Translations under genes and position numbers: made by a program | Notes under the pieces: generated by a model | What the model saw: only the letters and a program-made list of their open reading frames with translations | Told to the model about the DNA's origin: nothing | Database searches by the model: none | Part shown: piece after piece, positions 3,318 to 36,557 of the stretch | Position numbering within the stretch: position 1 is the first letter of the stretch | Layout of the letters: each line of letters begins with the position of its first letter | Origin: Acidimicrobiaceae bacterium | Lineage (GTDB): Bacteria > Actinomycetota > Acidimicrobiia > Acidimicrobiales > RAAP-2 | DNA length: 37,697 bases | Direction: 5' to 3' | NCBI GenBank assembly: GCA_013044265.1 | Contig: JABEUQ010000226.1 | Coordinates: 1-37,697 of the forward strand

Positions 3318-5663
3318 TCAGCGCGATGGTGCAGACCGTTCACCAGGGATCTGGCTGTCGTCGAGGTAGAGATAATTCTCGTCTTCTTGTGCCGTGTGCA
3401 ACTTGACGATGAAGTAGAGGCCGTACAGCAAGCTTCGAAGTTCTAAGACTTCGGCATCGTCAAGGTGATCGGCACGCAGCGCGCCCACGACCTGACCGAG
3501 TCGGCGAATCTGATGAATGATTTCACGATGCGCATGACTCATTGCCCCCAGAGGCTCTCGACCGCCCATGAGACGTGCGAGTAAGGGGTAGAGAATCTTC
3601 TCCTCCTCTTCTTCGTGAGGCTGAATTTCTTGCGTCAGCATCTCGTAGATCGTCTGGACTGCGCGAAGGGTTTCGGCGGGCTGCATGGATCCCAGTGAGT
3701 CGGCCGCGTTGTGAATCTCCTCAATGCTGTCGCGCAGGGAGGCGTGCTCGAGGCGAAAATGAGCGGTGACCGCAATGTCTTTGGCGTTGAGATGAGGGGT
3801 GTCATTTTCAGAGACCAGCGCCCGCAAGGAGTTCAAGATCACGGCAACGTCAATGAGCTCCTGCAATATCGCTCCCCAGACTGCGGGGAGCCAACCCACC
3901 AAGGCGAAAATCATCGCTACGAGAGAAAGGGCAATGCCAGTCACCATGCTTTGGCGAGCAACTCGTAGCGACTTCTTCGCAATGGCCAAGGCGTCGTCCA
4001 AGCGGTCGAGTCGATCGGAGGTCAAGATGACATCGGCGGCCTCCGATGCCGCGGTGGCGGCCCGAGAACCCATAGCCACGCCGACGTCCGCCAACGCCAG
4101 CGCGGGCGCATCATTGATACCGTCACCGACCATCATCGTCGAGGACCGCAGCGACTCGTCACGGACGATATCGAGCTTCTCTTGGGGTGAGCGTTCGGCG
4201 AAAACCTCGTCCACGCCGATAATAGAGCGCACCGTCTCAGCGACTTCAAGTCGGTCACCAGTGACCATCGCGATTCGACCAATGCCTCGACGTCGCAATC
4301 TTCGCATCGTGCGTTCGACGTCGGGGCGGATCGGGTCATCAAACACCAAGACACCGACGGGTTCGCCCTGCACTCCCACGAAAACAGTGAGGGCCCCATC
4401 GAGCTGAGCGCGGCGGCGCGCGCTAAATGCCCACGTCGGGTCCTCGCGAGCGCCACACCAAGCCGCCTTACCGACGGTCACCATTTGTCCCGCAATTCGC
4501 CCCCGAATCCCTTGACCGGCCTCCTCCTCGACCAACGTGGGCATCTCGAGTTCCAAGCCCCGCCCGAGTGCAGACTGGACGATCGACCTCGCCAGCACGT
4601 GGGGTGATAACTGGTCGAGGGAAGCCGCCAGTAGAAGGACGTCCTGCGAAGTGAAGTCGGCCGCGACCGCAATCTCGTTCAACACGGGTCGTCCGCGAGT
4701 AATGGTCCCCGTCTTGTCGATGAGCAAGGTACTGACGCGTGCCAGCCGTTCTAGGACTGCACCATTCTTTACGATGATGCCCAAGTGAGCGGAGCGCGAC
4801 AGTCCGGAGACTAGTGCCACCGGAACCGCCAAAATGAGTGGGCAGGGAGTCGCGACCACTAAGACCGCAACGGCACGGCTCAGCCCACCGACGATCCAAG
4901 CAAACCCCGCGAGCGCCAGCGACACCGCCACGAACCACTGAGAGTATCGGTCCGCCATTCGCACGAAAGGCACGCTCGCAGACTCCGCACCTGCGACCAA
5001 CCGAATGATTCCCGAATAGGTGCTTTCCTCCGCGCTGGCAATCGCGCGCATCTCAAAGGGAGGGCCCGCATTCAGCGCACCACTTCGGACCAATTCGCCT
5101 CGAGCACGTTCGACTGGCAGCGATTCACCCGTCAGCGCCGATTCATCAAGCACCGCGGATGTCGAGGTCATGTTCCCGTCCACGGGTACCATCTCGCCCG
5201 ACGTCACCACGACCAAGTCACCCACCACGACCGACGCGAGATCCACGGTGAGCATTTCGTCACCGTGGAGGAGATGCGCTGTCTTTGGGACGCGCACCAT
5301 CAGCGAAGCGATTTCTCGTCGAGCCCGGCGTGATGCCCATTGGTCCAGAGCGTGCCCACTCGCAAACATCACGCTAATGATCGCTGCTGCGAGGAATTCG
5401 CGCACGAAGAGCGCTCCGCCTAGAGAGAGTAGGGCGAGCGGATCCACTCCGAATCGACCCCGTCGCAGTTCATTCACCATCGCGACGAAGGAATATACGA
5501 CGCCGACCACCGCCGCCAAGAACCATGCGATGTGGGCACCACGAAGTGAACCGGTCAACCAGATGATGGCCCCGACCGACAATCCAGCAGTCACGCCGAT
5601 GGGAAGAGCGAAGACCGCAAACTTCGATCTCCAGTCCCGGACATTTCGCTGGCGTTCGCTCAT
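3318..5663 (-). CDS. P1B-type metal-transporting ATPase with C-terminal hemerythrin-like domain (P1B-5-like)
   Basis: DKTGT phosphorylation motif, TGES, GDGINDAPAL, transmembrane TPC motif (VVATPCPLILAVP). C-terminus with FRLEHASLRD / HEEEEEKILYPLL / HAHREIIHQ / KLHTAQEDENYLY hemerythrin-type His/Glu pattern. Track ORF to 5711; MSERQ start at 5663 likely. Confidence 0.88.
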   Translation of the reverse strand: MSERQRNVRDWRSKFAVFALPIGVTAGLSVGAIIWLTGSLRGAHIAWFLAAVVGVVYSFVAMVNELRRGRFGVDPLALLSLGGALFVREFLAAAIISVMFASGHALDQWASRRARREIASLMVRVPKTAHLLHGDEMLTVDLASVVVGDLVVVTSGEMVPVDGNMTSTSAVLDESALTGESLPVERARGELVRSGALNAGPPFEMRAIASAEESTYSGIIRLVAGAESASVPFVRMADRYSQWFVAVSLALAGFAWIVGGLSRAVAVLVVATPCPLILAVPVALVSGLSRSAHLGIIVKNGAVLERLARVSTLLIDKTGTITRGRPVLNEIAVAADFTSQDVLLLAASLDQLSPHVLARSIVQSALGRGLELEMPTLVEEEAGQGIRGRIAGQMVTVGKAAWCGAREDPTWAFSARRRAQLDGALTVFVGVQGEPVGVLVFDDPIRPDVERTMRRLRRRGIGRIAMVTGDRLEVAETVRSIIGVDEVFAERSPQEKLDIVRDESLRSSTMMVGDGINDAPALALADVGVAMGSRAATAASEAADVILTSDRLDRLDDALAIAKKSLRVARQSMVTGIALSLVAMIFALVGWLPAVWGAILQELIDVAVILNSLRALVSENDTPHLNAKDIAVTAHFRLEHASLRDSIEEIHNAADSLGSMQPAETLRAVQTIYEMLTQEIQPHEEEEEKILYPLLARLMGGREPLGAMSHAHREIIHQIRRLGQVVGALRADHLDDAEVLELRSLLYGLYFIVKLHTAQEDENYLYLDDSQIPGERSAPSR

Positions 5664-6226
5664 GACCCCATCTTGGTGTATCTCAGTGGCACGTGCACTG
5701 TGCGGTCTCAATTGATATGGCTACCCATTGAGTCGCAGTGCGAATGGCCACCCGGGCATCGACCCGAAGCAGCAGTTCACCCTAGCGAATACGCCGTACA
5801 CAACATTCTCCAGTTCCTAGGGAGCACGCGACTGCTGCGAGGATGCGCGATGTAGTGACCTTCCAAGGGCATAGGATTCTCCAATCTCAAAGGGCGAGCC
5901 CGGAGCTGACATGAGCAATCGCCACACCCAGGTACTCAAATCAAAGGTTGACTACCGCGGTGATGTCAGCCACCTGATTTCCACCTTGGGCGACGTGGTG
6001 GCCTTCGCGTCCATCTCACCTGGAACTATTGTCGACATCTCCAGGCCCAACTACTTCGCAAGCACGAGCCACTTCAAGCACGACCGCACGAGTCGGATTT
6101 GCAATTCCCGGTACCTCAATCTTCGAGCCGGGACTTGATTCGCTCTACTTCTACCTGCATTAATCCGTCATCATTCGCCAACGTAACTCACTTTCACGAG
6201 CTAGCGATGGAAGTGACAAAAGTAAT

Positions 6227-26929: not shown

Positions 26930-28510
26930 ATGGCGGACGACGTAGCAATAACGGCACAGGAGCAACAAGATATCGATCTCTTACACACGATGGGTTACGC
27001 CCAGGAACTCAAACGTGGAATGGGAGGCTTCTCGAACTTCGCAGTCTCCTTCTCAATCATTTCAATTTTGACCGGTGGAATAACTACCTACTACCTCGGC
27101 ATGCAGGCGGGTGGACCATTCGTCGTCACCATTGGTTGGTTCATTGTCGGCGCTCTCACCCTTTGTGTCGGCATGGGCCTCGCCGAAATCACCTCGGCCT
27201 TCCCCACCGCTGGTGGTTTGTACTGGTGGTCGGCCCGATTGGCTTCCAAGAACAAGGCGGCGTGGTCCTGGGCCTGCGGTTGGTTCAACCTGGTGGGCCA
27301 GATCGCGGTCACTGCGTCGATCGACTTCGGCCTCGCGTCGTTCCTCGGGTTCTTCATCAGTCTCTACGACACGAAGTTCGTGAGTAACGCCCGTTGGGTC
27401 CTCTTGTTCTACGGACTCATCTTGCTCGCTCACGGGCTCTTGAACTGCTTCAGGGTTCAATTGGTCTCGATGCTGGCCAACGTATCGGCGTGGTGGCATC
27501 TCATCGGTACTGCCATCATTGTGGTTGTCCTCTTCGCAGTGCCCTCACACCACCAGAGTGTCTCGTTCTTGTTCCACCACGAGAACATGACCGGTTGGAC
27601 CGGTCCGTTCGCCGGCGTCTACGCGTTCGCGATTGGTCTGCTTCTGGCCCAGTACACCTTGACTGGTTACGATGCCTCGGCCCACATGACCGAGGAGACT
27701 CTGGGTGCCGCCACTGGTGGCCCCAAGGGCATCGTGCGCGCCATCTGGGTGTCAATCATCGCGGGCTTCTTGTTGAACTTGGCGATGACCCTGGCCCTGC
27801 CCAGTGGAGAGAAGGCGTACGCCTCCATCGCTACCCTGGGCGCACCGGCCGGTGGAGAAGTCTTCATTAACGCTCTCGGCAACACCGGTGGCCGACTGCT
27901 CACGCTGATCGCCATGGTCGCCATGTTCTTCTGCGGTTTGGCGTCAGTGACTGCGAACTCACGTATGGCCTACGCCTTCTCTCGTGACGGAGCGGTCCCG
28001 GGGCACAAGTTCTGGCACCGACTGCACCCCACGACTCGCACACCCGTCAACGCGGTGTGGCTGTCGGTGGGGGCCGCGTTCATCTTGGGCATCCCCTCGC
28101 TGTACACCGTCAATGGGGCCTCAGTCGCATTCTTGGCCATCGTGTCGATTGGCACCGTCGGCCTCTACGTCTCCTACGGCATTCCGATTTTCCTACGCCT
28201 GCGCTCCAAGACCTTCGTGCCTGGTCCGTGGAATCTCGGAAGGTGGTCCAAGGTCATCGATACCATCGCCGTGATTTGGGTGGTGTGCGTCATGATCTTG
28301 TTCTTCGCACCCGCCTTCTACCCGTGGAACACTGCGATCGACATCAACTGGTCTGGTCCGGTCTTCATCGTGGTCATGGGAATCATCTTCCTCTGGTACG
28401 GCCTCTCGGCGCGCAAGTGGTTCACCGGACCCAAGATCCAGGGGTCCGAAATGGTGCTCGAGGAGATCGAGGTGGAGTACGCCGAGGGCATCGTTCCCGA
28501 CGAAGCGTAG
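26930..28510 (+). CDS. APC-superfamily amino acid/amine permease (amino acid-choline-transporter-like)
   Basis: LKRGMGGFSNFAVSFSIISILTGGITTYYLGMQAGGP, GLAEITSAFPTAGGLYWWSARLA, TGYDASAHMTEET; 12-TM-like. Shine-Dalgarno-like GGGGGAA before ATG. Confidence 0.92.
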   Translation: MADDVAITAQEQQDIDLLHTMGYAQELKRGMGGFSNFAVSFSIISILTGGITTYYLGMQAGGPFVVTIGWFIVGALTLCVGMGLAEITSAFPTAGGLYWWSARLASKNKAAWSWACGWFNLVGQIAVTASIDFGLASFLGFFISLYDTKFVSNARWVLLFYGLILLAHGLLNCFRVQLVSMLANVSAWWHLIGTAIIVVVLFAVPSHHQSVSFLFHHENMTGWTGPFAGVYAFAIGLLLAQYTLTGYDASAHMTEETLGAATGGPKGIVRAIWVSIIAGFLLNLAMTLALPSGEKAYASIATLGAPAGGEVFINALGNTGGRLLTLIAMVAMFFCGLASVTANSRMAYAFSRDGAVPGHKFWHRLHPTTRTPVNAVWLSVGAAFILGIPSLYTVNGASVAFLAIVSIGTVGLYVSYGIPIFLRLRSKTFVPGPWNLGRWSKVIDTIAVIWVVCVMILFFAPAFYPWNTAIDINWSGPVFIVVMGIIFLWYGLSARKWFTGPKIQGSEMVLEEIEVEYAEGIVPDEA

Positions 28511-28682
28511 GTGCGAGTCGTGCCCCTACCCGCAAGGCGCACTTTCGATTGGGCGAGTGCACTAGTAGTGATCACCGACACCACGAGGTCGAGACCTACT
28601 CACGTCACCGGGCCGACTCCCAGCGCAAATCACAGGAACCAATACTTGGCTCCATCGTGAGCGAATAGGACACACGCTCGTA

Positions 28683-28721
28683 GAGCACGATGCCCCTCCC
28701 GCCGGGAGGGGCATCGTGCTC
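28683..28721. terminator. 19-bp near-gapless perfect palindrome, probable bidirectional terminator between convergent genes
   Basis: GAGCACGATGCCCCTCCCG-C-CGGGAGGGGCATCGTGCTC, between the permease stop (28510) and the stop of the minus gene (28729). Confidence 0.8.
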
Positions 28722-28728
28722 CGATCAA

Positions 28729-29595
28729 TCAGTTCCGGTAACCCGCAAAGATATCGGTGACGTCGCCCTCCAGGCCCCGCGGATTCGTGACTCGCACGAA
28801 CCACTCGGTGCCCATCGCCTGACGGAACTCCTCTTTGGACATCTTCATCCAGAAGGAGTCGCCGATCTGCGAAGCGTGCGCGGCCAGCGCGTCATACTTG
28901 GCATCGGTGACGCTCGACACGTCAATCGTGGCACTGATCATTTCGTCCGGAGTACCCATGTTGAGGGGCTCGCCATCGATCATGGGAGGGCCTTCGGGCT
29001 CACGAACGATTCCCTTGGCGGCGTCGTGCTTCGCGCGACGACGACCTTCCTCGTCCCATCGAGCTCGCATGATCTCCATGACCGAGTCGGGAATGGCGTT
29101 GTAGTACAGAGTGGGCTGGTAATCGATCAGCTGCAACGCAGCCAACGTGATGCGATTGGCCTGGATGTGGTCGGGATGTCCGTAGAAGCCAATCTCGTTG
29201 TACGTCATCACCACCTGGGGGCGCTCCGCGATCAAGATCTCAGCGAGGCGGGCCGCCGCGTCGGCCACGGGCGTCGCCCAAAAACTTTCAGGATCGCTGT
29301 TCTGGGGCCAGCCCATCATGCCCGAATCACGGTACCCGAGACGAACCAGCCGATCAATCCCCAAGACCTCGACCGCGCGGTCGAGTTCTTGGGCCCTCAC
29401 CGCGGCCACCAGGTCAGCGTCGTGGTGTTCGGCGTCGGGCTTGGCTCCTTCGGGGTCGTCGCCACACTCACCATTCGTGCACGTCACCAGTACCGTACGT
29501 ACCCCCTGCTCGGCGAGTAGTCGATAGAGTCCTCCCGTCGAGGTGGCCTCGTCGTCGGGGTGCGCGTGCACCGCCAAGAATGTCAAATCGCTCAT
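28729..29595 (-). CDS. LmbE/PIG-L family deacetylase (Mca/MshB-like)
   Basis: AVHAHPDDEATSTGG, LGYRDSGMMG, YNEIGFYGHPDHIQAN. Confidence 0.9.
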   Translation of the reverse strand: MSDLTFLAVHAHPDDEATSTGGLYRLLAEQGVRTVLVTCTNGECGDDPEGAKPDAEHHDADLVAAVRAQELDRAVEVLGIDRLVRLGYRDSGMMGWPQNSDPESFWATPVADAAARLAEILIAERPQVVMTYNEIGFYGHPDHIQANRITLAALQLIDYQPTLYYNAIPDSVMEIMRARWDEEGRRRAKHDAAKGIVREPEGPPMIDGEPLNMGTPDEMISATIDVSSVTDAKYDALAAHASQIGDSFWMKMSKEEFRQAMGTEWFVRVTNPRGLEGDVTDIFAGYRN

Positions 29596-30401
29596 TGCAG
29601 TCCTCCGAATAAATCTTCGACACAGGCTAGTGACGACTCGTCACGCCGCCACCCGAGCTGGTAGTACTCGGTACCAAAGATCAGAGCGAACAATTCAGCA
29701 TCCATCGTGACGAGGTCAGCGTTATCGCTCTGGGAGGCGTGCGTGGCGATGGCCTGTTGCTTACGGGCGCTGAATCGCGAGACGTCCATCGCACAAGTCA
29801 CCAACTCGTCTGGAATATCAGCGACCGCGTCCTGCACCCACGCTGGCAGGGAGACACCCTGGCCGAGCGCCTGGTGCACGAAAGACTTCAACACACTGCG
29901 CGGCACGACGGGATAGAACAGCCGCTGTGCGCACGAACTCAACTCGACGGCACGGCGCGTCACGATATGTGCCATCACGTGGTCGGGGTGTCCGTAGAAG
30001 CCGTTCTCGTCGTAGGTCACCACGACCGACGCATTCTCTTGATCGATGACATCAGCGATGAATCGCGCTGTAGCTTCGACGTCGGCGTTCATGAAGGCGT
30101 CGCCATCTTGATTCGCCAACCAACCCATCATGCCCGAGTCTTTGAAACCTAGGGTGAGTTGGCGGTCGAAACCCACGAGTTCACCGGCGCGCATCAGTTC
30201 ACCCGCCCTGGTCGCACGCGTGACCGCCGCGTCGTGACCGAGGTCCGCGCCGGAACGACCGTGATCATCAAAACCAAGTTGACCCATCGTGCAGGTGATG
30301 AGGACGTTGCGCACCTCACGCTCGGCGTAATGCGACGTGATACCCGCGGTGAAGAGCGATTCGTCGTCGGGGTGAGCATGAACGCACAGGAGAGTCGGCA
30401 T
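29592..30401 (-). CDS. LmbE/PIG-L family deacetylase, second tandem paralogue
   Basis: CVHAHPDDESLFTAG, LGFKDSGMMGW, YDENGFYGHPDHVMAH. Track ORF to 30410. Confidence 0.9.
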   Translation of the reverse strand: MPTLLCVHAHPDDESLFTAGITSHYAEREVRNVLITCTMGQLGFDDHGRSGADLGHDAAVTRATRAGELMRAGELVGFDRQLTLGFKDSGMMGWLANQDGDAFMNADVEATARFIADVIDQENASVVVTYDENGFYGHPDHVMAHIVTRRAVELSSCAQRLFYPVVPRSVLKSFVHQALGQGVSLPAWVQDAVADIPDELVTCAMDVSRFSARKQQAIATHASQSDNADLVTMDAELFALIFGTEYYQLGWRRDESSLACVEDLFGGLQ

Positions 30402-30416
30402 AAGTATCACACGAGA

Positions 30417-31994
30417 TTACGAGGTGGAGATCTGAATGACACGAACCACCAAAAGGGTTCCCGCCGCGAAGAGATAGATACTCTGTCCACGCATCAAATA
30501 ACGCCGTGCTCGCGAACTCGGCAGCGGCGTCAGTAGCGAAAGCCGTGGGGTACGCCAGTCGCGACGATCGATATCAAAAGTAGGTGGCGGCGACATCTTG
30601 CGTAATCCGATCGGTAGCCCGATGAGCAGGCCCACGAGGTCGAAACCGGCCAGCCACTCGAGCAGTGCGATGACGTTGACCGAGGTGAACAACGTCGAGA
30701 CCATCAGTCCAACGGAGAGCACGACCAACACCGAAATGATGGTGATCGCGATGGCGTTGAGCCACTTAGGATTCACCCACGGGCCCATGACCGCACGGTC
30801 ATTGCACAGCAACAACACAATGATGGTGGTCGAGGGTAACATCAACCCACAAATCGCCTGGACCGACAAGGTGATGAGACCGAGGGGGGCGTGAGGAATG
30901 ACCGCCACCGTGCCGGCCAGTGCCAATAGCGCCGCGAATCCACCGTAAAATCCCTTGGCTTCAGAGAAGCGCGCATTCAGTCCTTGATGGCTACTCGATA
31001 GGTCGCCAATGGCGTAGGAACTCGCGAGCGTCACCGCCGCCGCACCAATTACCGAAGCGTTCAATAGCAAAATTGCGAAGAACCCTCCGGCACCGTGACC
31101 AACGTAGTGATTAAGACCATGCGCGACGTCCAGAGCTGAGGTGAACGCGTTGGTGCCGCCGTGCCCCGACAAGCCCGCCGCGGCTGACGCCATCAGCGCC
31201 GAGGCGCCAATGACGACAATGACTGAACCAATGATGGTGTCCGCTCGCTCGTAGTTGAGCCAACGTGGTGTGATCTTCTTGTCCACGATATTGGACTCCT
31301 GGAAGAACAACTGCCAAGGGGCCACGGTAGTGCCGATAATCGAAATGATGAGTAGCACCGCGGTGGAACTGGCGCCACCGCGGATGCCCGGGGTGATTGC
31401 GTGAAGAATCACTTGGTGTACTTGAGGCTTGACGACCACCAGCAGCGGGACCACGAAAATATTGATTGCGACGAAGAGCATCATGAAACGCTCCCAGCGA
31501 CGAAATGAGCCCGTCGCAGTGACTGCAAAGAGTAGAGCGACGGCGACGGGTACCGATATATATGGTGAGACACCGAAGTATTCCATCGAAAGAGAAATGC
31601 CGATGAACTCGGTGACGATAATCAAGAAATTAAGAAAGAGGATCGAGTAAATCGATAGATTGCCCCAATAACGTCCGAAACGTTCGCGAATTAAGCGACC
31701 GTGCCCGACACCGGTGACGGCGCCCAGACGCGCCACCATCTCTTGAATGATGATCAGCACCGGAATAAGTACTGGCAGCGTCCACAGGAGGGTATAACCG
31801 TAGTTCTGACCCGCCTGCGCGTAGGTAGAGACGCCACCGGCGTCATTGTCGCCCACCATCACAATCAGCCCCGGTCCAATAATGGCCAGTAGGGTGAGGA
31901 GGCGAGCTCGTGCGCCTCGACGAGCGCCATGGTCGTAGGAGCCAATGGTGCCGAAGGCACCGGCAATCTGATTCTCGGTTGACTTCTCACTCAC
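30417..31994 (-). CDS. NRAMP-superfamily divalent metal transporter, noncanonical metal site (NRMT-like)
   Basis: NRAMP-like multi-TM: LLTLLAIIGPGLIVMVGDNDAGGVSTYAQAGQNYGY, GTTVAPWQLFFQESNIVDKKI. AAAGGAGA Shine-Dalgarno supports GTG start at 31994 (track ORF to 32036). Confidence 0.85.
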   Translation of the reverse strand: MSEKSTENQIAGAFGTIGSYDHGARRGARARLLTLLAIIGPGLIVMVGDNDAGGVSTYAQAGQNYGYTLLWTLPVLIPVLIIIQEMVARLGAVTGVGHGRLIRERFGRYWGNLSIYSILFLNFLIIVTEFIGISLSMEYFGVSPYISVPVAVALLFAVTATGSFRRWERFMMLFVAINIFVVPLLVVVKPQVHQVILHAITPGIRGGASSTAVLLIISIIGTTVAPWQLFFQESNIVDKKITPRWLNYERADTIIGSVIVVIGASALMASAAAGLSGHGGTNAFTSALDVAHGLNHYVGHGAGGFFAILLLNASVIGAAAVTLASSYAIGDLSSSHQGLNARFSEAKGFYGGFAALLALAGTVAVIPHAPLGLITLSVQAICGLMLPSTTIIVLLLCNDRAVMGPWVNPKWLNAIAITIISVLVVLSVGLMVSTLFTSVNVIALLEWLAGFDLVGLLIGLPIGLRKMSPPPTFDIDRRDWRTPRLSLLTPLPSSRARRYLMRGQSIYLFAAGTLLVVRVIQISTS

Positions 31995-32173
31995 GCTCCA
32001 TCTCCTTTCGTTCTCTCGTGGTCGTTCGCGAATCAACCACGTGGGACGAAAGGCGCTAGGGGCGCGCCCCGTCTCTCATCGGAGGTTGAGTCGTGTCATG
32101 GACAGCTCTCAAACTGGTACTAGGGGGTTTCAGACAAGCCCCCTTAGAACGATGGAACGCGAACTCCGGAGCA

Positions 32174-33433
32174 TTATTCTTCCACCGCCGTCATTCCAAA
32201 CTCCTTGCGCCAACCCTGCGGCAACAATTCTTCGAGCAAGTCATCAACGGTGATGACGCCAATCATGACGTTGTGCTCTTCGTCGAGCACGGGTACGACG
32301 GTCAGATTGAAGTCACTCATCTTGCGCGCCACGCGGTGCAAGTCCCAGTGTGGGTGCACGTGGCTCATCTGCGTTCGCGAGACGCTGAGGGCCAACTCAT
32401 TGTCGCGCGCTTTCACCAGTGGCCCCAGAGCAGCCGCTCCAACGGTTTTGCCTTCGGCGTCGGTGACGAAGACTGCGTGCAGGGATTCGGCGGGCACGTT
32501 GGAAGTACGAATCGCCTCAATCGCCTCGGCCACGGTGGCGCTATCAGCGACGGAAACGAAATCGGTGTTCATCAAACCACCCGCGGTATCGGCATTGTAC
32601 GACAGCAGTTGACGAACCTTGACTTGCTGCTGGGAAGGGAGCCCCTCGAGGATTGGCAGTCGGCGCTCCTGATCGATCTCGTTGATGAGATCTGCCGCGT
32701 TGTCGGGTTCCATGCGCGTCAGCAGTCGTGCGGCCTCAGTATCTGAACGCGATTCGAGGAATTCAAGCTGGTGTTCGGTGTCGAGTTCTTCAAAGACGTC
32801 GGCCTCGAGCTCCCGGTCGAGGCCGACCGCCTCAATGATCTCTTCGCCCTCTTCGTGGCTCGCATGTTCCACCAAGTCGGCGATCTGGGCCGGGTGCAAC
32901 TTGGCCAACTTGCGATACGGGATGCGCAGCCGCGCCGAAGGCACGTGCGAGACGAAGGGTTCGATGGAAGCGAAGTCAACGATGGCCTCGGCCTTGAGAC
33001 GTTGACCCATGCGCTGGCCCAGAACACGACGAAAGAATGGGCGACGTCCGGGGTCCACTCCCACCACTTCCCAGCGACCATCGATTTCTGCGATCTCAAT
33101 CTCGTTGGCAATGATCAAACGCCCCCGCACCAGATTGATCAAGTTGCGTGCCAGGAGGTCCTCGGCCAACAGCAGCTCGCCGGGGCGACGCTCGAAACGG
33201 CGCAGGTCGACGCGTTTCCCTTGAAACGTCATGCGACCCTCAACTAGTCCACCAATCTTTCGAATTGGCACGAAGAGGTTGCGACCCTCGATGCGAATCA
33301 CCGCTCCGACAATGGGCGGGTGCGCATCGTCGCCGAGCCTCGCGACCAGATCCTGGACGCGGCCAATCCGGTCACCGTCCTGATCAAAGATCGGACGGCG
33401 CAGGAACGTGGAGAGGTGGAGAATATCAGTCAT
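32174..33433 (-). CDS. PRC-barrel + MgtE N-terminal + tandem CBS domain protein lacking a membrane domain
   Basis: N-terminal PRC-like FLRRPIFDQDGDRIGRVQDLV; MgtE_N repeats KLHPAQIADLVEH..., EPDNAADLINEI..., LLSYNADTAGGLMNTDFVSV; CBS pair ending GVITVDDLLEELLPQ; no hydrophobic TM region afterwards. Confidence 0.9.
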   Translation of the reverse strand: MTDILHLSTFLRRPIFDQDGDRIGRVQDLVARLGDDAHPPIVGAVIRIEGRNLFVPIRKIGGLVEGRMTFQGKRVDLRRFERRPGELLLAEDLLARNLINLVRGRLIIANEIEIAEIDGRWEVVGVDPGRRPFFRRVLGQRMGQRLKAEAIVDFASIEPFVSHVPSARLRIPYRKLAKLHPAQIADLVEHASHEEGEEIIEAVGLDRELEADVFEELDTEHQLEFLESRSDTEAARLLTRMEPDNAADLINEIDQERRLPILEGLPSQQQVKVRQLLSYNADTAGGLMNTDFVSVADSATVAEAIEAIRTSNVPAESLHAVFVTDAEGKTVGAAALGPLVKARDNELALSVSRTQMSHVHPHWDLHRVARKMSDFNLTVVPVLDEEHNVMIGVITVDDLLEELLPQGWRKEFGMTAVEE

Positions 33434-33536
33434 GACGCACTCTGTAGCCCCTTAAGGCTACCCCCTAGCGCGCTCGAGCGACCGCGCGCTCAGTGAACTT
33501 CGAGCGAACAGTGCTGGTCATGGTCGTGATGGCCAG

Positions 33537-34562
33537 TCAACTCGCCGGAGTGAAGTGGGTCAAGACTTCGCCGACGAAATCAATGTCGTCATCGCTCACG
33601 CCAGCGTGAGTAACGAATCGAACGCGCCGGGGTGCGATGGTTCCGCACCACACGCCGCGCTGGGTGAGTTCGAACACGATCTGGCGGGCCTGAGGATGAT
33701 CGAAGGCAACGATATTGGTGCGACACCGGGTCGGGTCGTACTCCGACTCGGGAAACGCACTCGCTACGAGTTCACCGAGCTTGCGCGCGCGAACATGGTC
33801 CTCAGCGAGGCGTTCGACCATGCTCTCCAGCGCCACCAACCCCGCCGCGGCGAGAATACCCACTTGTCGCATCGCTCCCCCGAGTCGCTTACGTTCAACT
33901 CGCGCGTCAGTCATCAACCCCGCTGGACCCGCGAGCAGGGAGCCCACCGGTGCGCATAGGCCCTTGGACAAACAGGCCATCACCGTGGTGGAGCAGGCGG
34001 CGATGTCGCGCGGCGACTCACCCGTGGCAATGGACGCGTTGAAGAGACGTGCGCCATCCATGTGAATTGGCTTGTCCCCCAGGGCGCGCGCCAACGCATT
34101 CAGATGTTCGAGGTCCCACGGTGCACCGCCGGCACTCATGTGGGTGTTCTCGAGCGCCACCATTGAGACGGCGACCTGATGATCTTGCTCCGCGTCGACG
34201 ATGTCCATAACTTCGTCGACGTTCAACTCACCTCGCGCGTCGTCCACGAGAGCGAACTGCACCGAGGCATTGCGCGCCGAGGCGCCCATCTCGAAACTCA
34301 CCACGTGCTGGCCTTTGCCCGCAATAATGACGTCACCGGGTCGAGTCAAGATCCTGACCGCGATCTGGTTCGCCATGACTCCCGAAGGGACGAACACTGC
34401 TGCTTCCTTGCCCACCATCTCAGCGAATCGCTGCTCGAGGGCGTGCACCGTCGGATCATCACCGAAGCCGTCGTCACCGACGACCGCGGAAGCCATTGCC
34501 TCGCGCATCGCGCGAGTGGGTTGGGTGACGGTGTCGGAGCGTAAATCCACGTGGCGGGTCAT
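33537..34562 (-). CDS. ltaE: Low-specificity L-threonine aldolase
   Basis: DLRSDTVTQPTRAMREAM, VGDDGFGDDPTVHALEQ, HMDGARLFNA, CLSKGLCAPVGSLLAG. Confidence 0.93.
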   Translation of the reverse strand: MTRHVDLRSDTVTQPTRAMREAMASAVVGDDGFGDDPTVHALEQRFAEMVGKEAAVFVPSGVMANQIAVRILTRPGDVIIAGKGQHVVSFEMGASARNASVQFALVDDARGELNVDEVMDIVDAEQDHQVAVSMVALENTHMSAGGAPWDLEHLNALARALGDKPIHMDGARLFNASIATGESPRDIAACSTTVMACLSKGLCAPVGSLLAGPAGLMTDARVERKRLGGAMRQVGILAAAGLVALESMVERLAEDHVRARKLGELVASAFPESEYDPTRCRTNIVAFDHPQARQIVFELTQRGVWCGTIAPRRVRFVTHAGVSDDDIDFVGEVLTHFTPAS

Positions 34563-34599
34563 TGTAAGAGGTTAGCCATGCACTTCTAGACTGCCTTTC
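34563..34599. promoter_or_regulatory. 37-bp divergent intergenic region with two face-to-face -10-like elements (TAACCT minus, TAGACT plus)
   Basis: TAACCT-CTTACA-ATG (minus gene, N6) and TAGACT-GCCTTTC-ATG (plus gene, N7); neither start has an SD sequence. Confidence 0.5.
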
Positions 34600-35013
34600 A
34601 TGAACGATGAAACCTCTTCGATAGCCAACGATGCCACCAACGTCCACGATTTCTTGGGCATCCGTACGATTGAGGCCACGCCTGATCGAGTGGTCTTGGA
34701 ACTCGACGTGACCGCGCACGTGCACCAGCCCTATGGCATATTGCACGGTGGCGTCTCGGCACTGCTCGCCGAAGGTGCTGCTTCGGTAGGTGGCAGCGTG
34801 AGCGTCGAGACTGGCCAGGCCGTGGTGGGTACCGAGTTGAATATTTCGCACCTGCGACCCATCCGCTCGGGAGTCATCACCGCAACAGCCACCCCAATTC
34901 GAAAGGGCCGCACGGTGCACGTGTGGGCTATTGAAATGACCGACGAGCGCGGCCGTCAGATTTCGGTGGCGAGATGCTCGTTGCAAGTTGTCACCGCCAC
35001 CGTCTCCAACTAG
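34600..35013 (+). CDS. PaaI-family hotdog-fold thioesterase
   Basis: PYGILHGGVSALLAEGAASVGG ... VVGTELNISHLRPIRSGVITATATPIRKGRTVHVWAIEMTDERGRQISVARC. Confidence 0.9.
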   Translation: MNDETSSIANDATNVHDFLGIRTIEATPDRVVLELDVTAHVHQPYGILHGGVSALLAEGAASVGGSVSVETGQAVVGTELNISHLRPIRSGVITATATPIRKGRTVHVWAIEMTDERGRQISVARCSLQVVTATVSN

Positions 35014-35063
35014 GCCCACGGCATAGACTGACGGCAGTATCGAGCCAGTGAGGGGCTGACAAC

Positions 35064-35984
35064 ATGGGAGTTCGCTTCAAGGGCTGGGGAATTGGCCTGC
35101 CCGACCGCATTGTGACCAATGACGAGCTCTCGCTGACTCTCGACACCTCTGACGAATGGATCTCTGAACGCACTGGTATTCGCCAGCGCTACGTCGGTGG
35201 GACAGCGCGTTCGCTGGGCGTGATCGCCGGACGTAACGCCATGGCTGACGCGGGCGTCGAGCCCGAAGATATTGATTTCGTCCTGCTGGCGACCACGTCG
35301 CCTGACCGCATCGCTCCCGCGACCGCTGTATTGATTGCGAATGACCTCGGCCTGAAATGCCCGGCGATGGACGTCAACGCGGCCTGCAGCGGCTTCATGT
35401 ACGCAGTGCGCACCGCACAAGGCTTACTCGAGACGGGTAACAAGCGCATCTTGGTTATTGGCGCCGAGCATCTTTCGAATTGGGTCGACTGGACGGACCG
35501 TAATGTCGCCGTACTGCTGGCCGACGGCGGCGGCGCGGCGGTCCTCGAATACGACCCCGACATCAACGACATACTTTCTTTCGCACTGAACGCCGACGGC
35601 TCGGGTGCCGACCTGTTGACCTGCGAGCACGAGGGCACCTTCACTATGGACGGCCGCGAGGTCTTTCGTCGTGCGGTGCGCGTGGTCGTCGAGTCGTCGC
35701 AACAGGCCCTCGAGCGTGCCGGTATTACCGCTGACGATCTGGCGCTGGTCATCCCGCACCAGGCGAATATCCGCATCATCCAAGCGGTCGTGGACCGCTT
35801 GGGTATTGGCATGGACCGTGCGGTCATCGCCCTCGACCGTTACGGCAACACTTCCAGCGCCTCGATTCCCCTGGCATTTGACGTTGCGCGTAGCGAGGGC
35901 CGCATCAAGACCGGCGACTACGCGCTCTTGACCGGTTTCGGCGCTGGTATGACGTGGGCCTCAGCCGTCGTTAAGTGGTCTTGA
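35064..35984 (+). CDS. fabH: 3-oxoacyl-ACP synthase III (KAS III)
   Basis: TSDEWISERTGIRQRYV, NAACSGFMYA (Cys), IPHQANIRII (His), YGNTSSASIPLA (Asn), GFGAGMTWAS. Confidence 0.93.
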   Translation: MGVRFKGWGIGLPDRIVTNDELSLTLDTSDEWISERTGIRQRYVGGTARSLGVIAGRNAMADAGVEPEDIDFVLLATTSPDRIAPATAVLIANDLGLKCPAMDVNAACSGFMYAVRTAQGLLETGNKRILVIGAEHLSNWVDWTDRNVAVLLADGGGAAVLEYDPDINDILSFALNADGSGADLLTCEHEGTFTMDGREVFRRAVRVVVESSQQALERAGITADDLALVIPHQANIRIIQAVVDRLGIGMDRAVIALDRYGNTSSASIPLAFDVARSEGRIKTGDYALLTGFGAGMTWASAVVKWS

Positions 35985-36122
35985 GATATATCGTTGCGTC
36001 TCCAACGAGTAATCACCGGCCCAACTCCTTTGGCGCGAGTATCGCGTGCGCGAAAGATCAGCACGACTTCCTAACGTAGTCAACGAGCCCTCGTTCGATG
36101 TTGCGCTGACGAAAGGAGGAAT

Positions 36123-36557
36123 ATGACTGCTATCAGTATCGATATCCTGATACCTCGGCCTCGTCAGATTGTGTGGGAGGAATTGCGCCACATCGATCGA
36201 CACGTTCACTGGATGTCCGACGCGGTCAGCATTGATTTTCAATCCCAACAGCACGAAGGGGTGGGTACCACTTTCGACTGCTTGACCAAGGTGGGGCCCT
36301 TTAAGACCAAGGACGTGATGAGCGTCACGCGCTGGGATGACGCGGTCGCGATCGGCGTCACTCACCACGGTCTCTTTACGGGGCACGGCGAATTCCTTCT
36401 CGCTGACGAGGGGACTGACACGCGCATGACCTGGCGTGAGAACCTAGTCTTCCCTTGGTGGTTCGCCGGATCTCTGGGCGCCTTCGTGGCCCGCCCGCTC
36501 CTGTGTTTGATCTGGAAGAAAAATCTTTCCGGTCTCGCTCGTCTCCTAATTTCGTAG
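36123..36557 (+). CDS. SRPBCC (polyketide cyclase/START-like) family protein
   Basis: ISIDILIPRPRQIVWEELRHIDRHVHWM...GVGTTFDCLTKVGPFKTKDVMSVTRWD; strong AAAGGAGG before ATG. Confidence 0.75.
   Translation: MTAISIDILIPRPRQIVWEELRHIDRHVHWMSDAVSIDFQSQQHEGVGTTFDCLTKVGPFKTKDVMSVTRWDDAVAIGVTHHGLFTGHGEFLLADEGTDTRMTWRENLVFPWWFAGSLGAFVARPLLCLIWKKNLSGLARLLIS

Follow-up and report, generated by a model that had tools for sequence, protein, structure and literature searches.

Most nrmT genes, which encode transporters of the NRMT (SLC11 Mg2+) branch, adjoin a homologue of the N-terminal cytoplasmic domain of the Mg2+ channel MgtE, and a cytoplasmic feedback or (metal-)chaperone role has been proposed for this MgtE-like fragment (Shin et al. 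2014, PLoS Genet; PMC4072509). The fragment is not discussed in the 2022 structural paper, and full-text literature searches found no test of it later than 2014. We analysed such a locus in an Acidimicrobiaceae bacterium, within a stretch of 37,697 nucleotides (nt), hereafter the window (GCA_013044265.1, contig JABEUQ010000226.1, positions 1 to 37,697 of the forward strand), where an MgtE cytosolic-domain homologue (the sensor) adjoins an nrmT gene, as in the linkage described in 2014. The core pairing has been known since then, and this locus is a variant of it with an undescribed leader. We put at about even odds (roughly 0.5) the reading that the two genes form one Mg2+-uptake unit, in which an NRMT importer would be under negative feedback in trans from the MgtE-type sensor, with additional control through the leader.

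An earlier note on this DNA, drawn from the letters alone, had proposed trans gating of the transporter by the sensor. Its placement of the transporter in the NRMT branch, its detached sensor and its conserved neighbourhood all stand. Since pairing and feedback were both published in 2014 (PMC4072509), the idea is a hypothesis already in the literature.

The sensor, the transporter and their pairing

The coordinates, strand and gene order in the earlier note were right: on the minus strand the sensor gene comes first and the transporter gene second, with 179 nt from the sensor stop codon to the transporter start codon. In the sensor, Pfam searches recover MgtE_N (expectation value, E, 2.2e-20; residues 179-281) and two CBS domains (E 1e-15), and the MgtE pore domain PF01769 is absent, so that the protein does not qualify as an MgtE channel and the note's reading of a poreless sensor is borne out. 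The PRC-like barrel that the note also saw falls below the cut-off when the window sensor is searched by itself (E 0.0064); it is backed by PRC matches in 32 of 37 sensor family members (best E 1.6e-12) and by an AlphaFold2 model (mean predicted local distance difference test score, pLDDT, 87.9) whose N half is all-beta, with pLDDT mostly >90, and runs on into an MgtE N and CBS architecture. The ten best matches in a fold search with this model are all MgtE, and its MgtE part aligns with solved MgtE cytosolic domains (8gpv, E 2.3e-18; 2yvy, template-modelling score 0.82 on the target). The modelled fold is that of an MgtE cytosolic domain.

Ligand positions point the same way. Residues E59, D91, D95, D214, D226, D247 and D250 of T. 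thermophilus MgtE (TtMgtE) map to D212, D244, D248, D364, N376, D398 and E401; four aspartates (D244, D248, D364, D398) are kept, E59 appears as D212 and D250 as E401, and D226 is lost to N376. Among 89 NRMT-linked sensors, aspartate stands at the D91 position in 84, at D95 in 83 and at D247 in 84 (~93-94%), and the E59 position is acidic in most. In MgtE, D91 and D247 form site Mg4, and D226 and D250 form site Mg5 (PMC5882242). The sensor sequence thus supports a cytosolic MgtE module, detached from the pore and with most Mg2+-ligand positions retained, and suggests that the protein binds Mg2+. In two Mycobacterium loci (L111, L113) no CBS part was matched in the NRMT-linked sensor homologue, the match covering profile positions 15-262 only.

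The transporter matches Pfam Nramp (E 2.1e-73), and the motifs that the earlier note reported in transmembrane segments 1 and 6 (TM1 and TM6) are present as written: GDNDAGG, with D51 and G54, and TVAPWQLFF, within TTVAPWQLFF, with T222, A225 and W227. Its best relative in the PDB is EleNRMT (7qia; E 1.6e-62), followed at 2e-22 by the next entry and at ~1e-13 by MntH. The NRMT signature comprises DxxG-TxxA/T in TM1/TM6 and loss of the TM6 Met and of two TM6b His (PMC8806188). Here DxxG-TxxA/T is formed by D51/G54 and T222/A225, the TM6 Met and both proton-path TM6b His are lost (A225, W227, Q232), E129 (at the E133 position of the signature) and Q379 are kept, and the EleNRMT ion site (DG/E/TTA/W/Q) is whole. 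These residues support membership of the NRMT branch, as the note had assigned it, and the protein does not group with the Mn/Fe NRAMPs; its import substrate is probably Mg2+. Two kinds of NRMT occur in the class, one of EleNRMT length (~425 amino acids (aa), TTITPY) and the other of the window kind (~525 aa, TTVAPW). Alignment shows a C-terminal extension of ~90 aa that is common to window-type NRMTs and absent from those of EleNRMT length. The same genome carries, at a contig end, part of another NRMT of the window kind (42% identity; G000:C133:6-542; L003).

The earlier note had suspected the same pairing in other actinobacterial genomes, and it extends far beyond Actinobacteria. In a genus sample of 41 genomes, all carry the sensor and 40 carry a window-kind NRMT; the two genes are adjacent on the same strand in 39 of 39 testable genomes, the remaining two having the sensor at a contig end. 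A cross-phylum survey of 80 NRMT loci, one genome per species, found an adjoining sensor at 57, with 2 loci at contig edges and 21 without a sensor. Sensor-linked loci include members of Actinomycetota, Bacillota, Acidobacteriota, Nitrospirota, Thermodesulfobacteriota, Omnitrophota, Chloroflexota and Spirochaetota, and exceptions to the sensor-first, same-strand order are few (among them G054, convergent, and L137 and L161, NRMT first). The pairing is far beyond chance, and it is real and old. Directly 5' of the pair in Clostridia/Bacillota stands an M-box riboswitch (L132, L135, L138, L157, L172, L173), which ties such operons to Mg2+.

Two further arrangements were seen among these loci. A contig of Actinomycetes bacterium RYN_230 (L109) carries two different, adjoining sensor-NRMT pairs in divergent orientation, one per NRMT kind. 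At three loci of genus members (L018 in G008, L059 in G106 and L220 in G026) the NRMT adjoining the sensor is divergent in sequence (55-57% identity) and lies further downstream, with the leader core kept, as if one NRMT had replaced another in place.

The genus offers few other recognised routes for Mg2+. The MgtE pore PF01769 was found in 0 of the 41 genomes, and CorA and MgtA exceeded the cut-off in 4 and 14, respectively. All three are missing from several near-complete genomes (for example G019 and G037, 96%), and NRMT is therefore the only recognised Mg2+ importer there. Judged by the families searched, the same would apply to most of the genus, bar an occasional MgtA or CorA.

The leader and a second membrane partner

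The gap between the two genes holds a leader with conserved blocks, GTTCTAAGGGGG-n5-CTGAAACCCCCnAGTACC (n5 being about five variable bases), and a hairpin that ends just 5' of the ribosome-binding site. Its core pattern occurs in 38 of the 41 genus genomes, as a single copy and always in the sensor-NRMT gap, apart from one extra weak match with 2 mismatches in G035; of the three genomes without it, two are contig-end cases and one is a variant. Among 198 genomes of the class, locus-specific matches fall only within the family (genera g1 and g3), the remaining matches being scattered and carrying 1-2 mismatches. Consensus folding of 31 leaders gave -55.9, against -34.8 (standard deviation, s.d., 4.0) in column shuffles. 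The three helices tested have 88.7% paired cells, against 39-54% when slid, and compensatory cells number 32, against 11.9 (s.d. 3.8) in shuffles. The leader has, then, the conserved structure with covariation that is looked for in a riboswitch. It matches no Rfam family, and the M-box (RF00380) was not found at window positions 28500-36500 even at E 5, with clostridial loci as the positive control. The leader is an undescribed, single-copy, family-specific RNA-like element, conserved and covarying, and is new here. It would control expression of the NRMT gene; that its ligand is Mg2+ is our guess from the gene downstream.

Several other readings of the leader were set aside. Its lengths span all three classes modulo 3 and a frame is open in just 5 of 42 leaders, which speaks against a coding stretch, and one copy per genome, always in the gap (bar the weak G035 match), speaks against a dispersed repeat. 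No known riboswitch was matched in the window. Single folds hinted that the ribosome-binding site is sequestered, but GGAG has a mean pairing of 0.76, against 0.71 for shuffles, and we do not claim it. The orientation of the transcript is taken from gene order only, because the opposite strand is equally foldable (-60.7 against -55.9).

Where a sensor gene has no NRMT partner, the gene that comes after it, close enough for translational coupling, encodes DUF1003 (PF06210). In a class sample of 119 genomes, all 36 full-length sensor genes adjoin a membrane partner (23 NRMT, 13 DUF1003), and a phylum-wide search found 14 sensors beside DUF1003, 10 beside NRMT and 3 without a partner inside the 1.5-kb flank. 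Both sensor types can occur in one genome at different sites (G134, G243). The DUF1003-linked sensors group in a single clade (support 100/100), and the loci that carry them come from Acidimicrobiia and other Actinomycetota (L082, L084-L086, L095, L096, L098, L099, L184-L197). Sensor-DUF1003 gene fusions were sought and none appeared in the loci checked. A literature search did not find this link described, and we report it as new; DUF1003 may be a Mg2+-linked membrane protein. We advance, tentatively and as a less likely proposal than the uptake unit itself, that the leader might be a new riboswitch class for Mg2+ or a signal linked to it, restricted to this bacterial family and taking the M-box role, and that the PRC/MgtE_N/CBS protein might be a regulatory subunit that can be exchanged between two or more unrelated membrane proteins, NRMT and DUF1003 among them.

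A proposed feedback mechanism and its alternatives

In the uptake unit that we propose, NRMT would carry Mg2+ into the cell, and the soluble MgtE-type protein, its CBS pair probably holding an adenine nucleotide (perhaps ATP) as in MgtE, would sense cytoplasmic Mg2+ and become saturated as the cell fills. The Mg2+-saturated sensor would change shape as MgtE does, dock on the cytoplasmic face of NRMT and slow it, a negative feedback in trans. The structured leader would add control of NRMT expression, the part that the M-box plays in clostridial relatives.

A number of observations weigh against this mechanism. In published work, co-expression of the A. capsulatum fragment in B. subtilis did not improve rescue of a Mg2+ defect, A. 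capsulatum NrmT showed the behaviour of a Mn2+ transporter, and complementation by clostridial NrmTs needed no fragment (PMC4072509). In our own survey, once the two NRMT loci at contig edges are set aside, 21 of 78 have no sensor next to them, the loci checked contain no reading frame that fuses sensor and NRMT, the D226 and D214 positions of TtMgtE are often lost among the 89 NRMT-linked sensors, and the AlphaFold2 model has no plug helix after the sensor CBS pair. The plug helix connects sensor with pore in MgtE; because it is absent here, the MgtE mechanism is not simply transferable to the sensor-NRMT pair.

The A. capsulatum results also feed a different explanation, in which Mn2+ is the main cargo of NRMT (or is carried equally with Mg2+) and the MgtE-like protein would sense Mn2+ or nucleotides instead of Mg2+. 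The NrmT of that species, whose gene adjoins an MgtE-like one, fully corrected a Mn2+ defect, whereas its rescue of a Mg2+ defect needed low millimolar Mg2+ (PMC4072509); in vitro, EleNRMT likewise transports Mn2+ (PMC8806188), and the window has no M-box. We nevertheless consider this explanation improbable, given that the window NRMT has the whole EleNRMT ion site, which offers hard ligands only and takes Mg2+, and that the genus is otherwise without common Mg2+ importers.

We rate about equally low the possibility that the soluble protein does not gate the transporter, and is instead a Mg2+/ATP buffer, a chaperone or an assembly factor for it, or acts on expression. The single published test, in which rescue was unaffected, supports such a role, and a metal chaperone was allowed for by its authors (PMC4072509), but that null result does not refute feedback, because a growth assay at low Mg2+ would not show an inhibitory effect. 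The coupling of the sensor family to DUF1003, an unrelated small membrane protein, also suits a non-gating role. It is very unlikely that the genes adjoin through shared regulation only, their proteins having no functional interaction: the lack of fusions and the NRMTs without a sensor would fit, but the adjacency spans many phyla, two different pairs lie side by side in one metagenome-assembled contig (L109), and in the class sample all 36 sensor genes adjoin one of two membrane partners.

If trans feedback by the sensor is confirmed, one Mg2+-sensing module would control Mg2+ routes built on unrelated folds (the MgtE pore, the NRAMP fold and perhaps DUF1003), and regulation would have passed from one transporter family to another as a subunit of its own. 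The role of the MgtE-like fragment beside nrmT, a question since 2014, would then be answered. If the sensor is an exchangeable subunit, DUF1003 would be an unrecognised component of Mg2+ transport. Our analysis also brings out a leader RNA not previously described and offers, for a protein family of unknown function, a role that can be tested; we regard the DUF1003 link and the leader as the parts most worth following.

Locus layout and comparison with described systems

The features of the locus are collected in the table. Directly 3' of the NRMT gene lie two tandem PIG-L family deacetylase genes (window 28729-30410, minus strand), which are probably on the same transcript; a PIG-L-like gene is also found downstream in L094. 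Elsewhere in the window (3318-5711, minus strand) is a P-type ATPase with a fused C-terminal hemerythrin domain.

Table. Positions of the sensor, leader and transporter features in the window
Feature	Position	Strand	Basis
Soluble sensor gene, 419 aa: PRC-like N domain, MgtE_N and two CBS, no pore	32174..33433	-	
Sensor N-terminal half, all-beta, PRC-barrel-like (residues 1-127)	33053..33433	-	AlphaFold2 model; PRC in 32/37 relatives
MgtE_N domain (residues 179-281) with D212 (TtMgtE E59), D244 (D91), D248 (D95)	32591..32899	-	
CBS pair (~residues 283-403) with D364 (TtMgtE D214), N376 (D226), D398 (D247), E401 (D250)	32225..32587	-	
Conserved non-coding leader, sensor stop to transporter start	31995..32173	-	
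Leader hairpin 1, GTTCTAAGGGGG-loop-CTGAAACCCCCTAGTACC; loop and 3' flank near-invariant; single copy per genome	32116..32150	-	
Leader terminal hairpin, directly 5' of the ribosome-binding site; covarying helix	32017..32041	-	
Ribosome-binding site GGAG of the transporter gene	32002..32005	-	Sequence
NRMT-type NRAMP transporter gene, 525 aa; GTG start at 31994, in-frame TTG upstream at 32036	30417..31994	-	
TM1 ion-site motif DAGG (D51-G54), the NRMT DxxG	31833..31844	-	Motif definition, PMC8806188
TM6 ion-site motif TTVA (T222-A225), the NRMT TxxA; Ala in place of the NRAMP Met	31320..31331	-	
Transporter C-terminal extension, ~90 aa (residues 437-525)	30420..30686	-	Alignment

Like the nrmT operons of Shin et al. 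(2014), the locus sets an NRMT beside an MgtE cytosolic-domain homologue and invites the same feedback hypothesis. Unlike them, it belongs to Actinomycetota, has a different conserved leader and no M-box, and encodes an NRMT with the C-terminal extension of ~90 aa; the PRC-like N domain of the sensor is also made explicit here. With EleNRMT (Eggerthella lenta, PDB 7qia; PMC8806188) the window protein shares the ion-site D, G, E, T, A, W and Q and the NRAMP fold; it is ~90 aa longer at its C end and has Q232 where EleNRMT has N234. The sensor shares with the T. thermophilus MgtE channel (PDB 2zy9/2yvx) the N and CBS domains and the ligands D91, D95, D214 and D247, with E59 as D, and differs in having neither pore nor plug helix, in its extra PRC-like N domain and in the changes D226 to N and D250 to E. 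The leader, in contrast to the M-box (ykoK) Mg2+ riboswitch RF00380, matches neither that family nor any other in Rfam, yet it resembles the M-box in standing ahead of a putative Mg2+ transporter operon, just as the M-box heads the clostridial pairs.
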